32,656 nt of DNA from the NCBI GenBank assembly GCA_019414645.1, contig DXLP01000025.1, positions 1 through 32,656 on the forward strand, given 5' to 3'. The notes below the pieces were generated by a model. It ran no database searches. It was not told the origin of the DNA and worked only from the letters and a program-made list of their open reading frames with translations. Within the stretch, counting starts at the first letter, position 1, and every line of letters begins with the position of its first letter. The stretch comes from Collinsella sp. (GTDB taxonomy: Bacteria > Actinomycetota > Coriobacteriia > Coriobacteriales > Coriobacteriaceae). This document shows positions 594 to 32,562 of the stretch, one piece after another. The translations under genes were made by a program, and so were the position numbers.

Positions 594-608
594 GTGCGCT
601 GAATGTAG

Positions 609-637
609 TTGCCAATTGGCGACTATACGAATATAGT
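609..637 (+). promoter_or_regulatory. mqsR operon promoter
   Basis: TTGCCA (609-614), a 17-bp spacer and TATAGT (632-637) form a good sigma-70-type promoter 28 bp before the toxin start. The -35 element overlaps the perfect palindrome GCCAATTGGC (611-620). Confidence 0.6.
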
Positions 638-654
638 TAGCATGATGCTAACTA
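634..654. promoter_or_regulatory. Operator dyad of the mqsRA operon
   Basis: Perfect inverted repeat with 10-bp arms (TAGTTAGCAT / ATGCTAACTA) and a single central base. It overlaps the -10 box and ends next to the ribosome-binding site. MqsA-family antitoxins repress their own operons by binding palindromes through the C-terminal HTH, so this is the likely autoregulatory site. The dyad is seen; the binding protein is inferred. Confidence 0.6.
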
Positions 655-664
655 AGGGGTGCTC

Positions 665-1012
665 ATGAACCGAACCAAGTTTCGGCCGACATATTCTCTA
701 GACGAGGCCAAATCCTTGGCCTGCTCGGGAGAGATGGTTGTAAACGGCAAGGTGCGCAGGCACCTGATCAACCACTATGGCTATTTGGATATTGATCGTT
801 TTCTCGCCGATCTATTTGATTACCTAAAGCCCAGCGATTTCAGGAAATCCATCGCACTCGATATGGATGGGCCTTTGCACGATGTTTACGCAGACGTCTA
901 TGTTTGTCGGGATTTTGAATGTGAGGATTGGTACGTTAAGTTTTCAATCGATTCTGAAGGCAAGGCGCATTTAAACGTCTTGTCTGCGAACATCGATGGA
1001 TATATTCATTAA
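665..1012 (+). CDS. mqsR: MqsR-like toxin (putative mRNA interferase)
   Basis: 115 residues. The ATG at 665 is chosen over the GTG at 659 because AAGGGG (654-659) sits at normal spacing from it. The central part, DFRKSIALDMDGPLHDVYAD and the following VYVC...WYVKFSID strand, matches the MqsR core (DFYKSMTTYSDHTIWQDVYR in the E. coli protein as I recall it), and length fits the family. MqsR toxins have a RelE-like fold and cut mRNA independently of, or associated with, translation. First gene of a three-gene operon; its stop abuts the ribosome-binding site of the antitoxin gene. Toxin-first order is as in E. coli mqsRA. Family assignment is from motif and context; activity is inferred. Confidence 0.75.
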   Translation: MNRTKFRPTYSLDEAKSLACSGEMVVNGKVRRHLINHYGYLDIDRFLADLFDYLKPSDFRKSIALDMDGPLHDVYADVYVCRDFECEDWYVKFSIDSEGKAHLNVLSANIDGYIH

Positions 1013-1022
1013 AGGAGGAGTC

Positions 1023-1535
1023 ATGCGTTGCATGGAATGTGGCAAGGAAATGCAATTTACCACGGCGCCAATGACTGAAATTTACCGTGGCGAGAAAATT
1101 ACTGTTGAAGGAATTGGGCATTATATTTGTGAGTGCGGCAATGATGAAATGACCGCTGCGGAGGCGACTAAACTCGCCCATGCGCTTGCCGCGCAATACG
1201 CCAAGGCTCATGAGCTTCTATCTCCCTCGGAAATAAAGCATTTGCGCTCAGATCTAGGCTTAACTCAGCATGAATTTGAGTCACTTTTAGGAGTTTCAAA
1301 ACCAACGTCATCTCGATGGGAGAACGGAGCGTCTCAGCAGACTGTTACTGCCAATATCCTTATGAGGCTCATTCGCGATGTTCCCGGGGCGCGCGAATAC
1401 CTGGGCTTGGCTCTCCATGAGAGGACCGCAACTCTTAGCTCGCCGCTTTTGTCTGTAATACCAGGAGGAAAAGCCCCTGCTTATAGGGATTCTGATCCTT
1501 TGGTTGATGAGAATTCCTTCCGATTGGAGATGTAA
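1023..1535 (+). CDS. mqsA: MqsA-like antitoxin with C-terminal extension
   Basis: 170 residues from ATG 1023, directly after AAAGGAGGAG. An N-terminal zinc domain (C3, C6, C36, C38; second pair CxC where E. coli MqsA has CxxC) with the conserved YRGEKITVEGIGHYIC pattern is followed by an Xre-type HTH (about residues 74-128, LGLTQHEFESLLGVSKPTSS). E. coli MqsA is about 131 residues; here roughly 40 extra residues follow, rich in Leu/Ser/Pro. In TAC systems such a tail is the chaperone-addiction (ChAD) segment that makes the antitoxin unstable unless a SecB-like chaperone binds it, and a SecB-like gene is next door. The protein should neutralise the toxin and repress the operon through the dyad at 634-654. 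Confidence 0.8.
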   Translation: MRCMECGKEMQFTTAPMTEIYRGEKITVEGIGHYICECGNDEMTAAEATKLAHALAAQYAKAHELLSPSEIKHLRSDLGLTQHEFESLLGVSKPTSSRWENGASQQTVTANILMRLIRDVPGAREYLGLALHERTATLSSPLLSVIPGGKAPAYRDSDPLVDENSFRLEM

Positions 1536-1961
1536 ATGGACTCGTTGAAGAAGCAGCGCATTGAGTCTTCGTCGATTACATGCGTGTCTAAAAAAGTCGA
1601 TAGGTTTTCATTTGATGGCGGAATGGCCCCGAAGGAGGGAGTTAATAAGTCAGACGGTGAGTTTAACGTTAGAAATGACATAACGAGTGCCTTCTTTGAT
1701 GAAAACGGAGTTAGATTTCGGCAGCTCAACCTTGTCATAGAGCTCATTCCCAGTGATGAGGGCCACTATTATCGTTCCGAAATATCCGTGTCCGGTATCT
1801 ATCGTGCTCCGTCTGATTTAGACGATGAGGCATTTGATAGGGAGGCGCTTAGCTTCGGCATGCAAGACCTGTATTCCTTTGCAAAGGGCATCATTGAGAA
1901 TGTTGCTGCCGGTGGGGTATGGGGGCCGCTTTATCTGCCACAGATCAGCTTTTCTATGTAG
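1536..1961 (+). CDS. SecB-like chaperone of a TAC system
   Basis: 141 residues; the ATG follows the antitoxin stop with no gap, so translation is likely coupled. The C-terminal half resembles SecB: a beta-strand segment LNLVIELIPSDEGHYYRSEI, then LYSFAKGIIENVAAGGVW and PLYLPQISF, which lines up with the SecB pattern of a helix (LFPYARECITSMVSRG in E. coli) followed by a P-hydrophobic-x-P-x-x-F motif. SecB is normally absent from Gram-positive bacteria, and solitary SecB-like genes there are known as the third gene of TA modules (the M. tuberculosis TAC paradigm). The likely job is to fold and protect the antitoxin. The N-terminal 50 residues show no clear match. Confidence 0.7.
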   Translation: MDSLKKQRIESSSITCVSKKVDRFSFDGGMAPKEGVNKSDGEFNVRNDITSAFFDENGVRFRQLNLVIELIPSDEGHYYRSEISVSGIYRAPSDLDDEAFDREALSFGMQDLYSFAKGIIENVAAGGVWGPLYLPQISFSM

Positions 1962-2068
1962 CTCGACCTTTGTCCCCAAACCTGAAAAATGATTGATCAC
2001 AGCCCGACTCTTCCGTAAAGTAACCCTTGATGAGGCCTAGCGACGGTACGTCCGGCTTGGTCCGTGGG

Positions 2069-2089
2069 AACCGCCGAAAGGCGGTTTTT
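2069..2089 (+). terminator. Terminator after the TAC operon
   Basis: AACCGCC GAAA GGCGGTT hairpin with a tight GNRA-type loop followed by a short T run, about 110 bp after the chaperone stop. Confidence 0.7.
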
Positions 2090-2157
2090 GCGTTTAGTGG
2101 GCTGTTTTCCGAGGAGCAATTGTCGTGTTTCCGCTTCAGACACTCGCTTTTACCGCG

Positions 2158-2696: not shown

Positions 2697-2833
2697 AGCG
2701 GAGACTCTCGGTAAGCAGCCAATGGGGTCCGGAGGCAGCTCCAGGCCAGCACTCCGCACATATTTTGTTGGGGTTTATTTTACGAGAACCCCAGTCAACA
2801 TCAGCGAACTTTCTGGGGAATGTTGGGGAGGGG
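2570..2833. repeat. Direct repeat copy B
   Basis: Second copy of the leader/signal-peptide repeat found at 148-413. Its right end falls where the terminal inverted repeat of the IS256-like element begins, so the element appears to have landed at, or caused, the repeat boundary. Confidence 0.8.
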
Positions 2834-3483
2834 TACCGTCAAGATTCTTTTGCAAATTGATTTTGCTGTCCTCGGCCCCGTCCTCTTCTAGCCCTCCTAC
2901 TTTCCTTTCAGTTCGTCCATCTCGTCCAGATTCGACATATCCAGGTGCCTCCTCTTGCCCCGCTCGTGCTCCACTATGTACTTCAGCCTCGCCGTCACCA
3001 GCATGAGGGCCGAGTTGCCGTCCGGGAAGGTCCCGACGACCCTCGTCTTCCTCCTGATCTCGCGGTTGATGCGCTCGATCCCGTCGCTCGTCCTAATCTG
3101 GCTCCAGCGATCCGGCGGGAATTCCGTGTAGGCAAGCGTCTCGGCGAACCCGTCGCGCATCGTCCTAGCGGCTGCCCCGCGGAGCTTCGACACGCTGAGC
3201 TCGACTTCCCTGGCGCCCGTGACGAGCTTTCTCGCGTAGTGGCCGCCGCGGTAGGCCTCCCGGCCCGCCGTCCTCTCATAGCGCTCGGCCCCGACAAGCT
3301 TGGACGCCTCCTCGTCGAGCAGCGCGTCGAGCGACCCATCGTCGATCGATGCGATGTTTGCGGACTCGGCTCGCGCCCCTTTCGTCGATGATTTGTTGTT
3401 TACTCGCCTGAAATCATATGACGACGCGTGGACCGTGTTCCTCTATGTGTTTGTCAATTTGTGAAAGTAATTATGCGTTACCC
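2831..3483. mobile_element. Internally deleted IS256-family element
   Basis: Ends form imperfect inverted repeats of about 31 bp: GGGTACCGTC...CTTTTGCAAATTGAT on the left (2831-2861) against GGGTAACGCA...CTTTCACAAATTGAC read inward from the right (3453-3483). Between them is one minus-strand frame with only the two ends of an IS256-type transposase. At about 650 bp it is roughly half the size of a complete element. No target duplication is visible. It could move only if a complete relative acts on it elsewhere. Confidence 0.65.
2897..3442 (-). pseudogene. IS256 (Mutator) transposase, internal deletion
   Basis: The open frame runs from a stop at 3443-3445 to the stop at 2897 with no ATG, GTG or TTG until the GTG at 3191-3193. 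It reads an N-terminal part (DALLDEEASKLVGAERYERT, GREAYRGGHYARKLV) joined in frame to the C-terminal hallmark (PPDRWSQIRTSDGIERINRE, RRKTRVVGTFPDG). The middle some 200 residues, which carry the DDE catalytic core, are missing; the join lies near VELSVSKLRGAAARTMRD. Complete enzymes are about 400 residues. Certainly inactive as a transposase; the DNA-binding part may remain. Confidence 0.75.
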
Positions 3484-3560: not shown

Positions 3561-3628
3561 GATGTAAAGATTTCTTGGCCGTTAAGCCATATTGGGGGGT
3601 CGAAAATTACGATGGAGGAGCGAGGCTT

Positions 3629-6349
3629 ATGAGAAACCCTCTTAAGGAGCTTTACAATGCAAACGACGCTGTAGAGCATTCAATTGATAGACTTGAATTC
3701 GAGGGCAGGTCAGCCGTTTCAAGAGACGTTGTGGGTTATCTGCGTCATCTTGTTGAGCACATTGCAATGTATGCAACTTATGGCAACAGGCCCATCGAAG
3801 GCGACTACTTTAAATTATGTTCGGTTGCTATTAAAGATATGAGCAAGAACAGCGAGACTCGGTTTATTGCTAAGTTCCATCATTATTTACAAAAGGTCGT
3901 TTCGCACTATGTTCCAAGTGAAGATTCTGCAGAGCGCCTTTTGTTGAAGTATTACGAAAATTTGCTGTGCTTGAAACGTTATGCATTCGATAAACTCGGC
4001 CTTACAATTCTTGCCAATTTGAGTAAGATTCCTCTGGACACCGATCCCGGCTTGGCTAAATACCATGAAGAGATAGCTCATAAAATCAATGATTTCATGA
4101 GTGCCAATGCTGTTGAAATTGAGAAGGACCGTTTTTACGTTAGAGCTGCTAAGCCTTTCTTTGTTGGGGATTCTGTCTATTATGAGGCGACACTTGTCCC
4201 CGCATTCGATTCTTGTAGCAAATTTGATCGTATACTTGTTTATTCATCTTTCAGAATGCCCACTAATTATTCAGTGGTGGTTTCGACTAAGCGCACGAGT
4301 ATCGACGGTCTTGGCTTTACTCTTCCTGTTACGATTGTTGATGCATATGCGGTTTCAGTACGCCCCTGTGAGTTGAATAATCTTATAAAGATACTTAGAG
4401 GCCCTGATGCAGTGTGGCTTACTGGCCAATACACTAGCTATAGATCACTTATGAACCTAATGACCCATACCGGGATGACGCTTTGCGACATTGCTCTACT
4501 CCCTGATGACGAGTTTATTTCTGTGATGGGGGAGATAGCATCTTCGGGAAATGCCTGTCCGGTACACACCTTGCTTAGCTCTGCGCATGAGTTTTTGAGT
4601 GCTGGCTCAAATGGATCTAATGTTCTAAAGTATCTTTTGTCTAAACCTCGTAACAGGGTTATAGAGGAACAATTGACTGTAAGTCCGAATAGCCGTCTCG
4701 GTGACCTTTATTTGAAAAACGGCTGTGCCCCCTTTGATCGGCAGCCGTATTGCACGAGTCTTATTGGGCATGTAGTCGCTGTCGAGGATTTGTATCAATG
4801 TATTGATCCAGATCCGTATGAAGATAACTTTCTTGCTCGTAGGGTGACCGCGGAGACAATCGATTCTAATGCTCTGTATCTTAGGGATACCGAAATTACA
4901 ACCTTCTCGGATGTTGATGAACTGATTGCCTCATTTAATAGCGCTTTGTATTTTAGACATCATTCAAGGGATCTCGTGCATGAGAACGGGCATCTATTTG
5001 TTAAGGGAGTCGAAGACGAACTCACTTGTATTATACGCGGGCTTTTAAAACTGTCTGGTGCCGGGGTCAAAGGCTATACTGCTTTATGTGAATCATGGCT
5101 TAAAGATCCAAGCTGCAAGTTGGATGATTCAGAAAAAATAGATGCTCTAAAGTCCATGTTTGCCGAAACGAGCGTCGCGTTCATCTACGGTTCGGCTGGT
5201 ACCGGAAAAACAACCATGGTCAACATCGTTTGCGCTTTTCTGCAAAATGAAAGCAAACTTGCTATCGCTAATACAAATCCTGCCGTAGATAGCCTTAGAA
5301 GAAAAATAAATGATAAGAATTGCGAATTTATGACCGTCGCGAAGTATTTGAATCGTGTGCCAGATTGCGACATCTTAATCGTTGACGAATGCAGCACTGT
5401 CTGCAATAGCGATATGAAATCTATTATTGATTCTAATCGGTTTAAACTGCTATTGCTTGTTGGCGATGTGAGACAGATTGAGTCCATTAAGTTTGGAAAC
5501 TGGTTTTCATTGGCTCGAGACTTCTTGCCTGATAAGTGCATCCATGAATTTGATAAACCATGGCGCACGAAGAATGATGATTTGCTAAAACTATGGCATG
5601 CTGTCAGGAATGTGAGTCCTGATATCGCTGAAATTCTTATTTCTTGCGATTTTACGTCGAATCTTGATGACTCTGTAATTAGCAGAATGAATGATGATGA
5701 GATTGTCTTATGTCTCAACTATGATGGCCTCTATGGCATTAATAATATGAACAAAATCTTGCAGTCGGGAAATAAGAACGAGGCCGTTGTCTGGAATTAT
5801 CATACGTATAAAGTCGGCGACCCAATTTTGTTCAATGAGTCTGAGCGGTTTTATCCGTTGTTATATAACAATCTAAAAGGGCGTCTTGTGGGAATGGAAG
5901 CAATTTCCAAAGACGAGATGCAATTTACGGTTGCTGTTCCCATTATCGCCTCCGAGCTTTCCGTTCTTCATTACGACGGGTTGGAGTATTTAGATTTTCG
6001 TGATGGAGAGACGTATCTGCGCTTTTCAGTTAAGAAAGCCAAGGATCGAGACGGTGAGGATGTTGGCGAGGACTGTATCGTGCCGTTTCAGGTGGCGTAT
6101 GCGGTGTCTGTCCATAAAGCGCAAGGACTAGAGTACTCATCCGTAAAGCTGATTATTACGAAGGACGTTGAGGAGCGCATTACTCACAGTGTGTTTTATA
6201 CGGCAATAACGAGGGCGCGAGAAAGACTTCATATTTATTGGTCGCCTGAATCTCAGAATAAGATTCTCTCAAGCTTCGAAATCTCTAAGGAGCATAAAGA
6301 TGCTTACCTCCTTAGTAATCGGAGGGGCCTTAAGATTCAGCGGAAATAA
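3629..6349 (+). CDS. SF1 helicase with large N-terminal domain
   Basis: 906 residues from ATG 3629, which has GGAGGAG eight bases upstream; the frame could also open at TTG 3575. The C-terminal 390 residues carry the SF1 motifs of the RecD/TraI/Upf1 type: Walker A GSAGTGKT (521-528), DEC of motif II (586-588), GDVRQ of motif III (612-616), KPWRT (643-647), SVHKAQG (827-833) and TAITRAR of motif VI (858-864). Residues 1-500 match no domain I know. Base composition is much AT-richer than the core genes, which points to horizontal acquisition. Neighbours (TAC operon, IS remnant, zinc-ribbon cluster) suggest a defence role, but this is inference; DNA or RNA as substrate is open. Confidence 0.8.
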   Translation: MRNPLKELYNANDAVEHSIDRLEFEGRSAVSRDVVGYLRHLVEHIAMYATYGNRPIEGDYFKLCSVAIKDMSKNSETRFIAKFHHYLQKVVSHYVPSEDSAERLLLKYYENLLCLKRYAFDKLGLTILANLSKIPLDTDPGLAKYHEEIAHKINDFMSANAVEIEKDRFYVRAAKPFFVGDSVYYEATLVPAFDSCSKFDRILVYSSFRMPTNYSVVVSTKRTSIDGLGFTLPVTIVDAYAVSVRPCELNNLIKILRGPDAVWLTGQYTSYRSLMNLMTHTGMTLCDIALLPDDEFISVMGEIASSGNACPVHTLLSSAHEFLSAGSNGSNVLKYLLSKPRNRVIEEQLTVSPNSRLGDLYLKNGCAPFDRQPYCTSLIGHVVAVEDLYQCIDPDPYEDNFLARRVTAETIDSNALYLRDTEITTFSDVDELIASFNSALYFRHHSRDLVHENGHLFVKGVEDELTCIIRGLLKLSGAGVKGYTALCESWLKDPSCKLDDSEKIDALKSMFAETSVAFIYGSAGTGKTTMVNIVCAFLQNESKLAIANTNPAVDSLRRKINDKNCEFMTVAKYLNRVPDCDILIVDECSTVCNSDMKSIIDSNRFKLLLLVGDVRQIESIKFGNWFSLARDFLPDKCIHEFDKPWRTKNDDLLKLWHAVRNVSPDIAEILISCDFTSNLDDSVISRMNDDEIVLCLNYDGLYGINNMNKILQSGNKNEAVVWNYHTYKVGDPILFNESERFYPLLYNNLKGRLVGMEAISKDEMQFTVAVPIIASELSVLHYDGLEYLDFRDGETYLRFSVKKAKDRDGEDVGEDCIVPFQVAYAVSVHKAQGLEYSSVKLIITKDVEERITHSVFYTAITRARERLHIYWSPESQNKILSSFEISKEHKDAYLLSNRRGLKIQRK

Positions 6350-6650
6350 CGGCTGGCCGTCTGTTTGTCATTGGTTAAGACTAAGGCGAAACTTTGTTAG
6401 TTCTTGCGCGCTTGAGTACAATTTAATATTGCGAAACAGTGCCGACATTATTGTGCTTGGGCACCTGAATCGGCAAATAGTCCATTGTCGTTTTTTGTCA
6501 GCGGCTGACCTTATGTCGTTGTCAAATGCTGGTCTTGACCATGCCGATACTGACCGTGTTGATTCGCAATATTTAGCGGTGCTTATGCGGGCAAATACTC
6601 ACTCACTCGCAGCTGCCGATACCACCTTATGGACGTTAATAATAATCTAG
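6300..6650 (+). CDS. Possible small protein overlapping the helicase end
   Basis: 116 residues in another frame, starting 50 bases inside the helicase gene with AAGGAG (6286-6291) well placed before the ATG. The part after the helicase stop reads as plausible protein (ADIIVLGHLNRQIVHCRFL, then DHADTDRVDSQYLAVLMRAN). Its stop shares the bases CTAG with the stop of the convergent gene at 6647. No family recognised. It may be a coupled helicase partner, a frameshifted C-terminal segment, or chance. Confidence 0.45.
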   Translation: MLTSLVIGGALRFSGNNGWPSVCHWLRLRRNFVSSCALEYNLILRNSADIIVLGHLNRQIVHCRFLSAADLMSLSNAGLDHADTDRVDSQYLAVLMRANTHSLAAADTTLWTLIII

Positions 6651-7048
6651 AGAGATTTTTTCGCATGCTTATCGAAACTCTTCATTGCTTTTTTGTAAGC
6701 TTTTGGATGGTTGAGATAATAAGTCGCCTTAGCTTCGACTTCCTCTTGATTGGGTTCGTAAGGTAAAACGGCCCCGCATCGAGAGCAAAACCAGTTCAGT
6801 GTTCCTGGCGGCGAGTAAAAGAGCGGGCTAACTTGAACACTATTATCATCACGAGGAATAAAATCCAAATGCGGGCAGTAGCTCTGTGCTAACTTTCGGT
6901 GTCGTTCTTTGCGGCTTGCAATATACATATTGATGTCGAATTTGATGCCAAAATGCAAGATCGCAATTATTGCAAGAACGAATATTACAACGAGAAAGAC
7001 CATCACTCCGTATCTCTCTATTAGTAATTTTGAAACAGAGTCGCTCAT
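6647..7048 (-). CDS. Membrane-anchored Cys/His-rich protein
   Basis: 133 residues; the ATG is preceded on its strand by AAAGGAG at good spacing. One hydrophobic segment (about residues 15-33, MVFLVVIFVLAIIAIL) precedes a cytoplasmic-looking domain with CPHL and, 30 residues on, CSRCG, which could bind one zinc ion. The last 35 residues are Lys/Glu-rich. No family recognised. Last gene of the minus-strand cluster, separated from the upstream gene by a dyad. Confidence 0.65.
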   Translation of the reverse strand: MSDSVSKLLIERYGVMVFLVVIFVLAIIAILHFGIKFDINMYIASRKERHRKLAQSYCPHLDFIPRDDNSVQVSPLFYSPPGTLNWFCSRCGAVLPYEPNQEEVEAKATYYLNHPKAYKKAMKSFDKHAKKSL

Positions 7049-7186: not shown

Positions 7187-8008
7187 CTATCCGATAATTC
7201 CAGGAAGAATAGGGGCGATGAGTACGCCCAGCTTCGTTACGTTCTCAATAAACGTAGCCCCTTCGTTGATGCCCTTTAGGGTGTTCCATAGCGACTTTAG
7301 TATTGACGGTTTAGGCTGCGGAGTCTCAAAAACGTCTTTCATCGCGGCGATTGCATCCGCAGCAATTGTCCTGTTCTCACTGGAAAGCTCGTGGAGGGAG
7401 CTTTCCAGTTTTCCGATTATGTCGTTGAGCGCGTTAACGTCTATGCCGTTTGACTGATTGATGGTCGTACTTGACCCGTTCGTTGTCTGGGAAGCGATGG
7501 CGGCTCCCGAGTTGCCGAAATTGTTTACCTGTGTCACGGATTCATCCAATCCTAGTTCGATGCCCTTTAGTGTGATGGCCTGATTGACTCCGTTTACGAG
7601 GCGTCTCGCTACGTCATTCAGGAAGCCTTCGGCCATATCGTCATATTTCCTTGAACCGTGTGCATAGCCTAGAAGGAGGTGAAACGACTGGCATAGCTTT
7701 CTGTCGACTATTGCTTTGAGTACGAGATACGTTACGGCGCTTTCGCCCTCGCAGCTAGGCGGGAAGTTAAATATGGTATATGGGTCCGAATTTACTTCAT
7801 CGATTTCGGCGTTTTTGTCGAACCCGCTAGGCAAATGGTTTGCCACGCAATCCTCAATGAACGCTCGTGTTACAGGCTGCCCATCAATAAAGTTGAGGTA
7901 GCGAGTGAGGGCTGTGTTGAGGTCATTGTAGTCAGACCTTAAAAGATTGCTGGCTTCAGCACTATGCTTGAAGAGTAGTTTTCGCAGCTCAATCTTCTCA
8001 GAATCCAT
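7187..8008 (-). CDS. Two-domain protein with Gly/Asn/Ser/Thr linker and hydrophobic tail
   Basis: 273 residues. A helical N-terminal domain (about 1-155) is followed by a polar low-complexity linker (about 160-190, with VNNFGNSGAAIASQTTNGSS), a predicted coiled-coil or helical segment (190-235), and a C-terminal helix ending in a hydrophobic Gly/Pro/Ile tail (LGVLIAPILPGIIG). The order, domain then beta-prone polar linker then helices, resembles abortive-infection proteins such as those with AbiTii domains, but I do not see the AbiTii domain itself. Its start overlaps the zinc-ribbon gene by 11 bases, so the two are translationally coupled and probably act together. Candidate membrane-acting effector; inference. 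Confidence 0.65.
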   Translation of the reverse strand: MDSEKIELRKLLFKHSAEASNLLRSDYNDLNTALTRYLNFIDGQPVTRAFIEDCVANHLPSGFDKNAEIDEVNSDPYTIFNFPPSCEGESAVTYLVLKAIVDRKLCQSFHLLLGYAHGSRKYDDMAEGFLNDVARRLVNGVNQAITLKGIELGLDESVTQVNNFGNSGAAIASQTTNGSSTTINQSNGIDVNALNDIIGKLESSLHELSSENRTIAADAIAAMKDVFETPQPKPSILKSLWNTLKGINEGATFIENVTKLGVLIAPILPGIIG

Positions 8009-8456
8009 TGAATTGTCCTATTCCGCAGTAGGGGCATGTGTATAAAGACATCGCAAGTGCAGGGGACACCTTTGATATGCGCTTGCAGTCCTTGCAGGTT
8101 ACCTTCTGAAGGGCTTCGATTGCTTGCCGGATGGGAATCTCGGGTTCCTCTTCATTGTATGATTTCACACTGAAAGAGACGTGATCATTGCCCTTTCCGC
8201 CAAGCTCCTTCTTAAGCAGTTCTTCTAGCTCCGGCACGACCACATTCGCTGTTTTTGATAAGGCCAGGTCGATGACGTCCGGTGTGAAGAAGTTGTCCGA
8301 GATAAGGCCGCACAGAGGGCAGTGGATATCTAGGACGGAATCACTCTCATACTCATCAACGACGACTTTGAATAGCTCTCCGCAGTTCGGACATTGGAAA
8401 AGTACGCAGCCGTCTTCATCGGAAGGTATCGAGATGTTGAACCGAAGGTTGTCCAT
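7998..8456 (-). CDS. Double zinc-ribbon protein
   Basis: 152 residues; strong AAAGGAGG site four bases before the ATG. Two CxxC pairs near the N-terminus (C22/C25, C46/C49) and two near the C-terminus (C121/C124, C141/C144) make two zinc ribbons joined by an acidic, helical middle. Such proteins often bind nucleic acid or a partner. It overlaps the downstream gene by 11 bases, and the frameshifted gene upstream ends 20 bases before its start, so all three look like one operon. No named family recognised. Confidence 0.7.
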   Translation of the reverse strand: MDNLRFNISIPSDEDGCVLFQCPNCGELFKVVVDEYESDSVLDIHCPLCGLISDNFFTPDVIDLALSKTANVVVPELEELLKKELGGKGNDHVSFSVKSYNEEEPEIPIRQAIEALQKVTCKDCKRISKVSPALAMSLYTCPYCGIGQFNGF

Positions 8457-31221: not shown

Positions 31222-32562
31222 GTGCCAAAAAAGACTGAGAGCACGGGTACTGGGCTGGAATCCTACGTTGCAAAGCTCATGGGCAACGGCTCAAACAGGA
31301 CTTCGGTAACCGAGGACGAGATTCAGGTCGCCCTGAAGGATATCGATGTCTCTGATGAGCAGCTCAACGCGGTGTATTCCGCGCTGCGCAACAGCGGCAT
31401 CCAGATTATCTCCGCGAGCGGAAACGACGACGCCCCGATGGACGTCGACGATGACGATAACGATACCGATGATTTCGACGATGACGAGCACGATTCCGGC
31501 TCGCTTGACGATCACGAGCTTAAGATGGCCCGCCAGGCCGATGCCGAGATGGGCTCTTCCAAGAGCAAGAAGAAGCGCACCGTGCGCACGTCTCGTTCGC
31601 GTTCGCGCGTGCGCGGCATCGATGCCTCCACGGTGATGCTGACCGGCGATCCGGTTCGTATGTACCTCAAGGAGATCGGTAAGGTCGACCTGCTGACCGC
31701 ATCTGAAGAGGTCGATCTGGCCATGAAGATCGAGGCCGGTCTCGAGGCTACCGAGAAGCTCGAGGCTGCCGATGCGGGCGAGATTGAACTCACGCGCGCC
31801 GAGATGCGTCGTCTTACGCGTATCGAGAACGTTGGTCTTGAGGCCAAGCAGGCGCTCATCAGCGCAAACCTGCGTCTGGTCGTCTCCATCGCCAAGCGCT
31901 ATGTTGGCCGTGGCATGCTGTTCCTGGATCTGATCCAGGAGGGCAACCTCGGTCTGATCCGCGCCGTCGAGAAGTTCGACTACCAGAAGGGCTTTAAGTT
32001 CTCCACGTACGCCACGTGGTGGATCCGTCAGGCCATTACGCGCGCTATTGCCGACCAGGCCCGCACCATCCGTATTCCCGTGCACATGGTCGAGACCATC
32101 AACAAGCTCGTCCGCGTGCAGCGCCAGCTCCTCCAGGACCTGGGTCGCGACCCGACTCCCGAGGAGATCGGTGCCGAGATGGACATGAGCGCCGACCGCG
32201 TCCGCGAGATCCAGAAGATTTCGCAGGAGCCCGTGTCGCTCGAGACCCCGATTGGCGAGGAAGAGGATTCCCAGCTGGGCGACTTCATCGAGGACTCCCA
32301 GGCTATCGTCCCGCCCGATGCCGCCAGCTTCTCCATGCTGCAGGAGCAGCTCACTCAGGTGCTCGATTCGCTTGCCGATCGCGAGCGCAAGGTTATCGAG
32401 CTGCGCTTTGGCCTTGTCGACGGACATCCCCGCACGCTCGAGGAAGTCGGTCGCGAGTTTGGCGTCACGCGCGAGCGTATCCGCCAGATCGAGTCCAAGA
32501 CCCTGGCCAAGCTCCGCCATCCCAGCCGCAGCAGCAAGCTTAAGGACTACATCGAAAGCTAG
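31222..32562 (+). CDS. rpoD: Primary sigma factor RpoD/SigA
   Basis: 446 residues from GTG 31222 (GAAGGGAG upstream). Region 1.1 is followed by a very acidic stretch (about 72-96, mostly Asp) and a Lys/Arg/Ser-rich one; then region 1.2 ([11 protein letters not shown]), region 2 ([31 protein letters not shown]), region 3, and region 4.2 ([20 protein letters not shown]). It is the housekeeping sigma factor. It follows dnaG as in the classical macromolecular-synthesis operon but has its own promoter here. Confidence 0.97.

Follow-up and report, generated by a model that had tools for sequence, protein, structure and literature searches.

Toxin-antitoxin-chaperone (TAC) systems join a SecB-like chaperone to a toxin-antitoxin (TA) pair. 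Bordes et al. reported that TAC antitoxins have C-terminal extensions, missing in chaperone-free homologs and highly variable in length and composition, that confer dependence on the chaperone (PMC5105189). In MqsRAC of Escherichia coli C496_10, neutralization of the toxin takes both the antitoxin and the SecB-like chaperone, and phage T2 is blocked (PMC9519451, PMC10783111), while Vcho-MqsRA/SecB-TA of the proteobacterium Vibrio cholerae RC385 is also of the MqsRA type and reportedly works in E. coli as a TA system under the control of its SecB-like chaperone (PMC5105189). The toxin and antitoxin of HigBA1-Rv1957 of Mycobacterium tuberculosis belong to the HigBA family (PMC6377645, PMC5105189), and CmdTAC of E. 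coli ECOR22 combines an mRNA ADP-ribosyltransferase toxin with another kind of antitoxin, CmdA, which ends in LAA; there, a phage capsid protein draws the SecB-like chaperone away and the toxin is released (PMC11618068). Here we analyzed a 32,656-nucleotide stretch of Collinsella sp. (GenBank assembly GCA_019414645.1, contig DXLP01000025.1, positions 1 to 32,656; hereafter the window), a Gram-positive actinobacterium of the class Coriobacteriia in the NCBI taxonomy. Three open reading frames (ORFs) on its forward strand, touching or nearly so, encode MqsR, MqsA, and a SecB-like protein, the same three families as in the C496_10 system, and very probably constitute an MqsRA-type (MqsRAC-type) TAC system. 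The likeness to C496_10 MqsRAC is one of family rather than of sequence distance, and the locus differs from the two MqsRA-type systems in its host and from HigBA1-Rv1957 and CmdTAC in its toxin and antitoxin. Computation here established the gene set, the protein folds, the catalytic residues, the conserved operators, the selection acting on each gene of the cassette, and the association of the antitoxin tail with the chaperone gene.

The three abutting genes named in a first-pass annotation made from the sequence alone were borne out by ORF analysis, Pfam and NCBIfam matches, and fold comparison. The first, mqsR (665..1012; a GTG at 659 is a possible alternative start), encodes a predicted RNase toxin of 115 residues that matches PF15723 with an E value of 1.9e-5 and 25.4 bits, 0.8 bits under the 26.2 cut-off, and that has no NCBIfam match. 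Its predicted structure has an MqsR fold, and the fold comparison backs the weak Pfam match; residues K61 and Y90 correspond, within matching motifs, to Lys56 and Tyr81, the catalytic residues of E. coli MqsR (PMC9636575). Sequence searches of the PDB with the single window MqsR or SecB-like protein returned no match, so that both proteins called for profile and fold comparisons. The second gene, mqsA (1023..1535), encodes an antitoxin of 170 residues with an N-terminal zinc-knuckle domain, a helix-turn-helix (HTH) domain, and a C-terminal extension; it is well recognized by PF15731 (E value of 3.5e-14; 53.5 bits, where the cut-off is 30) and by the NCBIfam MqsA-family model TIGR03830 (E value of 1.3e-24), and phmmer aligned its residues 2-117 with E. 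coli MqsA (3gn5; E value of 3.6e-5). The second zinc pair of MqsA is C-x-C rather than C-x-x-C in the window and in two related genomes, G015 and G020.

The third gene (1536..1961) begins with no gap behind mqsA, TAA being followed directly by ATG, and encodes a SecB-like chaperone of 141 residues. A SecB fold was predicted for this protein, and fold comparison again backs a weak Pfam match (PF02556); a wrong fold in the first or third protein would, by the terms of the first-pass annotation, have refuted it, and both proteins came through this check. In the alignment with E. coli SecB, the last residue of the chaperone is paired with SecB residue 137, leaving no counterpart of the remaining C-terminal end, and its identity to Rv1957 is about 12% in structural alignment. 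NCBIfam returned only subthreshold SecB models for it (best E value of 0.014). A profile of close relatives alone reached an E value of only 0.65 at best, to Haemophilus influenzae SecB; a broader profile matched E. coli SecB with an E value of 4.6e-6, owing in part to members that Pfam already recognizes.

The limits of the cassette emerge from comparison with other genomes of the genus, for which we used 43 genomes from the genus of G001, the genome nearest to the window (47% of sampled words in common). A blastn search with the window's left 10.5 kb gave one TAC match in each of loci L050 (G015) and L040 (G020), with 82.5% and 83.2% identity and covering exactly window positions 607-1964; the whole cassette on the forward strand (607..1964) is therefore taken to run from the first operator to 3 bases past the third stop codon. 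The complete cassette is found in the window and in two more genomes of its genus (Collinsella sp. TF06-26 is one), and related cassettes occur in two metagenome-assembled genomes (MAGs) of Atopobiaceae, so that the presence of a complete MqsRA-type TAC in this lineage, as had been proposed, is upheld. The window itself is chromosomal, because its right part carries housekeeping genes (leucyl-tRNA synthetase and IMP dehydrogenase among them). Searches of phages with MqsR (tblastn) and of plasmids with the cassette (distant blastn) and the SecB-like protein (tblastn) gave no match, and no relative of MqsA or of the SecB-like protein was found in viral contigs (13 pattern matches for each protein, 0 confirmed).

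Toxin, antitoxin, and chaperone genes form one operon behind a single conserved promoter region. The promoter and operator dyad of the first-pass annotation correspond to a candidate hexamer pair, TTGCCA-17-TATAGT (609..637, forward strand; 10 of 12 consensus matches), and to two palindromes, both serving as operator candidates and all conserved in G015 and G020. Palindrome 1 (606..625) is an inverted repeat overlapping the -35 hexamer, with its core conserved in both genomes; palindrome 2 (634..654) is a fully complementary (100%) inverted repeat around a 1-base center that overlaps the -10 hexamer and extends toward the mqsR start, and it is kept in both genomes with one mismatch in G020. 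The number of promoter-like sites in the region (3 found versus 1.6 +/- 1.6 expected) is not significant by itself, but the block of promoter and palindromes is conserved in G015 and G020 whereas the DNA immediately upstream diverges. Sequences resembling ribosome-binding sites (AAGGGG and AGGAGG) lie upstream of mqsR and mqsA.

We estimated the ratio of nonsynonymous to synonymous substitution rates (dN/dS) from the pairs window-G015 and window-G020. Values were 0.04 to 0.06 for mqsR, 0.07 for the SecB-like gene, and 0.06 to 0.08 for codons 1 to 121 of mqsA; the other 49 mqsA codons reached about 0.4, with a dN of 0.27 against 0.03 to 0.05 for the MqsA core. Outside the mqsA tail the differences fall mostly at third codon positions. 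The chaperone is accordingly constrained as strictly as the antitoxin core, while the antitoxin tail is the fastest-changing part; together, the codon-position pattern and the dN/dS values show selection on all three genes, indicating that the arrangement is not due to chance.

This tail (MqsA residues 122-170; 1386..1532, forward strand) is, by its length and fast evolution, a candidate chaperone-addiction (ChAD) region. With the HTH-domain motif WExG as the starting point of the count, it has 73 residues in the window, and a comparison built on 34 class genomes with MqsR shows that tails measure 65 to 104 residues where a SecB-like ORF or one of the same size follows (n = 9, window included) and 36 to 58 residues where none does (n = 20), with no overlap between the groups (p = 1.1e-5, a value inflated by kinship). 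In other words, the antitoxin carries a C-terminal extension that is missing from its chaperone-free relatives. The comparison left out G100 and G137, where the DNA ends at or just after mqsA (47 bases are left in G137), as well as G300, G297, G037, and G337, whose MqsA proteins either have other domains fused to them or do not lend themselves to comparison. Another ORF of at least 200 residues starts within 60 bases of the mqsA stop in 8 of the 20 cases without a chaperone, and the SecB-like profile matched no such ORF among these 20. Identities of antitoxin tails between distant systems were dropped, some being based on very few aligned residues. At loci L035, L039, L044, and L046, which belong to the last four genomes left out, MqsA-like proteins with long C-terminal additions adjoin MqsR.

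Several observations weigh against the TAC interpretation. The SecB-like protein matches PF02556 with an E value of only 0.001 and 19.4 bits, under the cut-off of 26, and a Foldseek search with the MqsR model, taken alone, listed no MqsR at an E value of 1e-3. PADLOC gave no match for MqsR or the SecB-like protein and only weak RmrA matches for MqsA (E value of 6e-4 or worse). Half of the distinct metagenomic MqsR relatives (9 of 18) are, as judged by eye, out of frame near the C terminus, at differing points; these fall in small clusters of 1 to 5 members, against 166 to 754 for intact relatives, and because the clusters are small, sequencing error and loss of the toxin are indistinguishable in them. 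In two of the eight class genomes with a candidate chaperone (G206 and G372), only position and size mark the third ORF as SecB-like. Finally, MqsA has RLEM as its C terminus in the window and likewise in G015 and G020, in place of the LAA/AA end that CmdA and half of the chaperone-linked MqsA proteins have. The literature describes a C-terminal LAA, a ClpXP signal, in CmdA as well as in further TAC antitoxins (PMC11618068), and this signal is common but not obligatory: among 12 chaperone-linked MqsA proteins (the 9 above and those of three MqsR-less pairs in G041, G042, and G142), 6 end in AA, 1 in VA, and 5 otherwise, while the AA ending occurs in none of the 20 chaperone-free MqsA proteins or in G137. 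The RLEM ending thus suggests that the lineage of the window may use a different degradation or protease route.

By analogy with the studied relatives, from which chaperone dependence, proteolysis, RNase activity, the trigger, and a defensive role are carried over, the SecB-like chaperone of growing cells would bind the C-terminal extension of MqsA and keep the antitoxin folded and safe from proteases. The zinc domain of MqsA would hold MqsR off its RNA substrates, and the HTH domain would repress the promoter through the two palindromes. A trigger, most likely a phage structural protein and possibly accumulated unfolded proteins, would draw the chaperone away, upon which the antitoxin would be degraded, MqsR would cut mRNAs, and growth would stop. 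Phage defense is a plausible role in view of E. coli MqsRAC (PMC9519451, PMC10783111) and CmdTAC (PMC11618068). We put its probability at about even. Classical TA modules stabilize mobile DNA, and there is a substantial, if minority, chance that this is a working TAC that serves genomic-island maintenance or a stress response rather than the stopping of phages, given the sharply bounded cassette, its variable region, a duplicated flank, and a nearby remnant of a Mutator-family transposase. TAC modules were also described as stress-responsive before the work on phages (PMC5105189, PMC4257090). On the other side, three window genes to the right of the cassette match candidate defense families in PADLOC, and the genes upstream of the cassette at three other close loci, of which one each was scanned, matched AbiD in L040 and PDC-M68B in L041, with none in L042.

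Readings without a TAC fare worse. The pairing of an ordinary two-gene MqsRA module by chance with an independent SecB gene for export would find a precedent in the SecB genes without TA partners known in Firmicutes, such as Streptococcus pneumoniae (PMC4257090). For the same reason, the earlier argument, that a single-membrane organism would have no other obvious use for a SecB-like gene, goes too far in general; it holds in this class, since six of the seven Pfam SecB matches there adjoin an antitoxin-like gene. We nevertheless regard an independent SecB as quite improbable: the gene begins right after the mqsA stop and travels with mqsRA as one cassette, the long antitoxin tail is found only with SecB-like or same-size ORFs, and the protein ends at the equivalent of SecB residue 137, whereas the C-terminal helix of SecB makes contacts with SecA (PMC6377645). 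Weak SecB and MqsR scores and the out-of-frame metagenomic relatives could point to a decayed or coincidental locus without function, but dN/dS values of 0.04 to 0.08 outside the antitoxin tail, an open reading frame for each gene in three genomes, and conserved operators make such an explanation highly improbable.

The SecB-like protein is present in 2 of the 43 genus genomes (G015 and G020), and its counterparts in the two Atopobiaceae MAGs are 36 to 40% identical. Pfam MqsR matches occur in 34 of 396 class genomes; at family level, the counts were 3 of 65 genomes for the window's family and 5 of 140 for that of the Atopobiaceae MAG G319. Eight of the 34 (G015, G020, G021, G155, G206, G275, G319, and G372) have an ORF of 141 to 162 residues overlapping or abutting the mqsA stop, and 20 have none of this size there. 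The Pfam SecB model at an E value of 0.001 detects only one of these eight candidate chaperones (G155) and misses seven, two of the eight being doubtful, so TAC counts in Gram-positive bacteria may be too low. A profile built from seven better-recognized members supported the G021 protein (E value of 5e-7). The proposition that all eight ORFs are SecB was rejected, since the G206 score was at noise level and that of G372 did not exceed the score of an unrelated ORF. We noted in G021 (L036 and L049) a second TAC type within the same genus, with a SecB-like protein 17 to 22% identical to that of the window; its MqsR and MqsA core are 45% and 52% identical, suggesting that the chaperones diverge faster or were separately acquired.

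Across the class, Pfam SecB gave 7 matches in 6 of 396 genomes, 3 of them over the Pfam cut-off. Four lie beside MqsA (L004, L005, L006, and L009), and the only strong one (L003, 84 bits) stands apart in the ORF listing. Two other loci hold candidate tripartite systems in which both toxin and SecB matches are below Pfam cut-offs: a HicAB-SecB arrangement with a HicB antitoxin and a weak HicA match (L008:1483-2687) and a Gp49/HTH-SecB arrangement with an HTH protein and a weak Gp49-family match (L007:1456-2775). In G042 (L048:6935-11111), an MqsA-SecB pair stands between PADLOC matches to HmaB (1220 bits) and HmaC (1029 bits); the HmaC-like gene has Pfam HEPN_Swt1 and DUF499 domains and the HmaB-like gene is a methylase, in what is apparently an Hma-type defense operon. 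The same Hma-like flanks surround the pair in G041 (L005; 99% identical) and G142 (L006; 71% and 65%). No Pfam MqsR match was found in G041 or G042 at an E value of 0.001, and G142 has one on another contig. Because these pairs have no adjacent mqsR and are flanked by Hma-like genes, we tentatively raise the possibility, which we consider rather unlikely, that the Coriobacteriia MqsA-SecB pair is a transferable phage-sensing unit, having a fast-evolving tail and a chaperone, that has become coupled to different killers; these might be MqsR in the window and the HEPN/DUF499 ATPase plus DNA methylase in G041, G042, and G142.

MqsRA-type TACs, Gram-positive SecB-like genes, and a HigBA-type TAC from an actinobacterium have already been published (PMC5105189, PMC4257090, PMC11618068, PMC6377645), and CmdTAC homologs were reported in Gram-positive species (PMC11618068). 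One source mentions MqsRAC as characterized in mycobacteria (PMC9519451), citing work that is described as HigBA elsewhere (PMC5105189). Among the literature matches listed, to which subscription journals and preprints contributed little, none concerned a TAC in Collinsella, Coriobacteriia, or Atopobiaceae; a survey of gut TA systems lists both MqsR and Collinsella, with SecB and chaperones unmentioned in its available text (PMC7354421). With these results, both Atopobiaceae and a gut lineage related to Collinsella have a complete MqsRA-type TAC. With a short chaperone that is without the export-related end and a sharp link between tail and chaperone gene, these loci provide a clean comparative set for studying the origin of chaperone addiction, and the same set is suited to asking whether it is in the tail and the chaperone that evolution against phages takes place.

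The genes to the right of the cassette are compatible with what may be a defense setting, judging from their PADLOC matches. These are a 924-residue helicase matching candidate family PDC-S53 (3575-6349; 1110 bits), which in the 43 genus genomes is matched weakly at best and within the helicase region (lowest E value of 9e-5), and two minus-strand genes matching PDC-M14B (7187-8008; 429 bits) and PDC-M14A (7998-8456; 150 bits), together a two-gene match to candidate system PDC-M14 (7187-8456). The ORF at 6647-7048 has no PADLOC match, and among ten ORFs further right a single one at an E value of 1e-6 is a partial match to MzaA, in its C-terminal half (31222-32562; 228 bits). A truncated remnant of a Mutator-family transposase (PF00872) lies to the right of the cassette at 2832-3482, and in G015 a longer copy, which is open, immediately precedes that genome's TAC on the upstream side.

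A hairpin able to act as a terminator (2063..2092, forward strand; fold of -20.1 kcal/mol, z of -3.27) had been counted in the first-pass annotation as an element of the operon. It folds well, but we rejected it as part of the operon: it lies outside 607-1964, is absent from the DNA common to the window, G015, and G020, and is not among the calls of a terminator scan of the region. It belongs instead to an interspersed genus-wide repeat with hairpin arms (2020-2460), which has matches in 22 of the 43 genus genomes and several copies in most of these. The cassette is also bracketed by a 267-base direct repeat (87%) at 145-411 and 2567-2833, which includes both the start of a gene that, by eye, resembles one with a signal peptide and the DNA upstream of it; the flank at 1-420 matches 10 of the 43 genus genomes, two of them weakly, and occurs twice in some.
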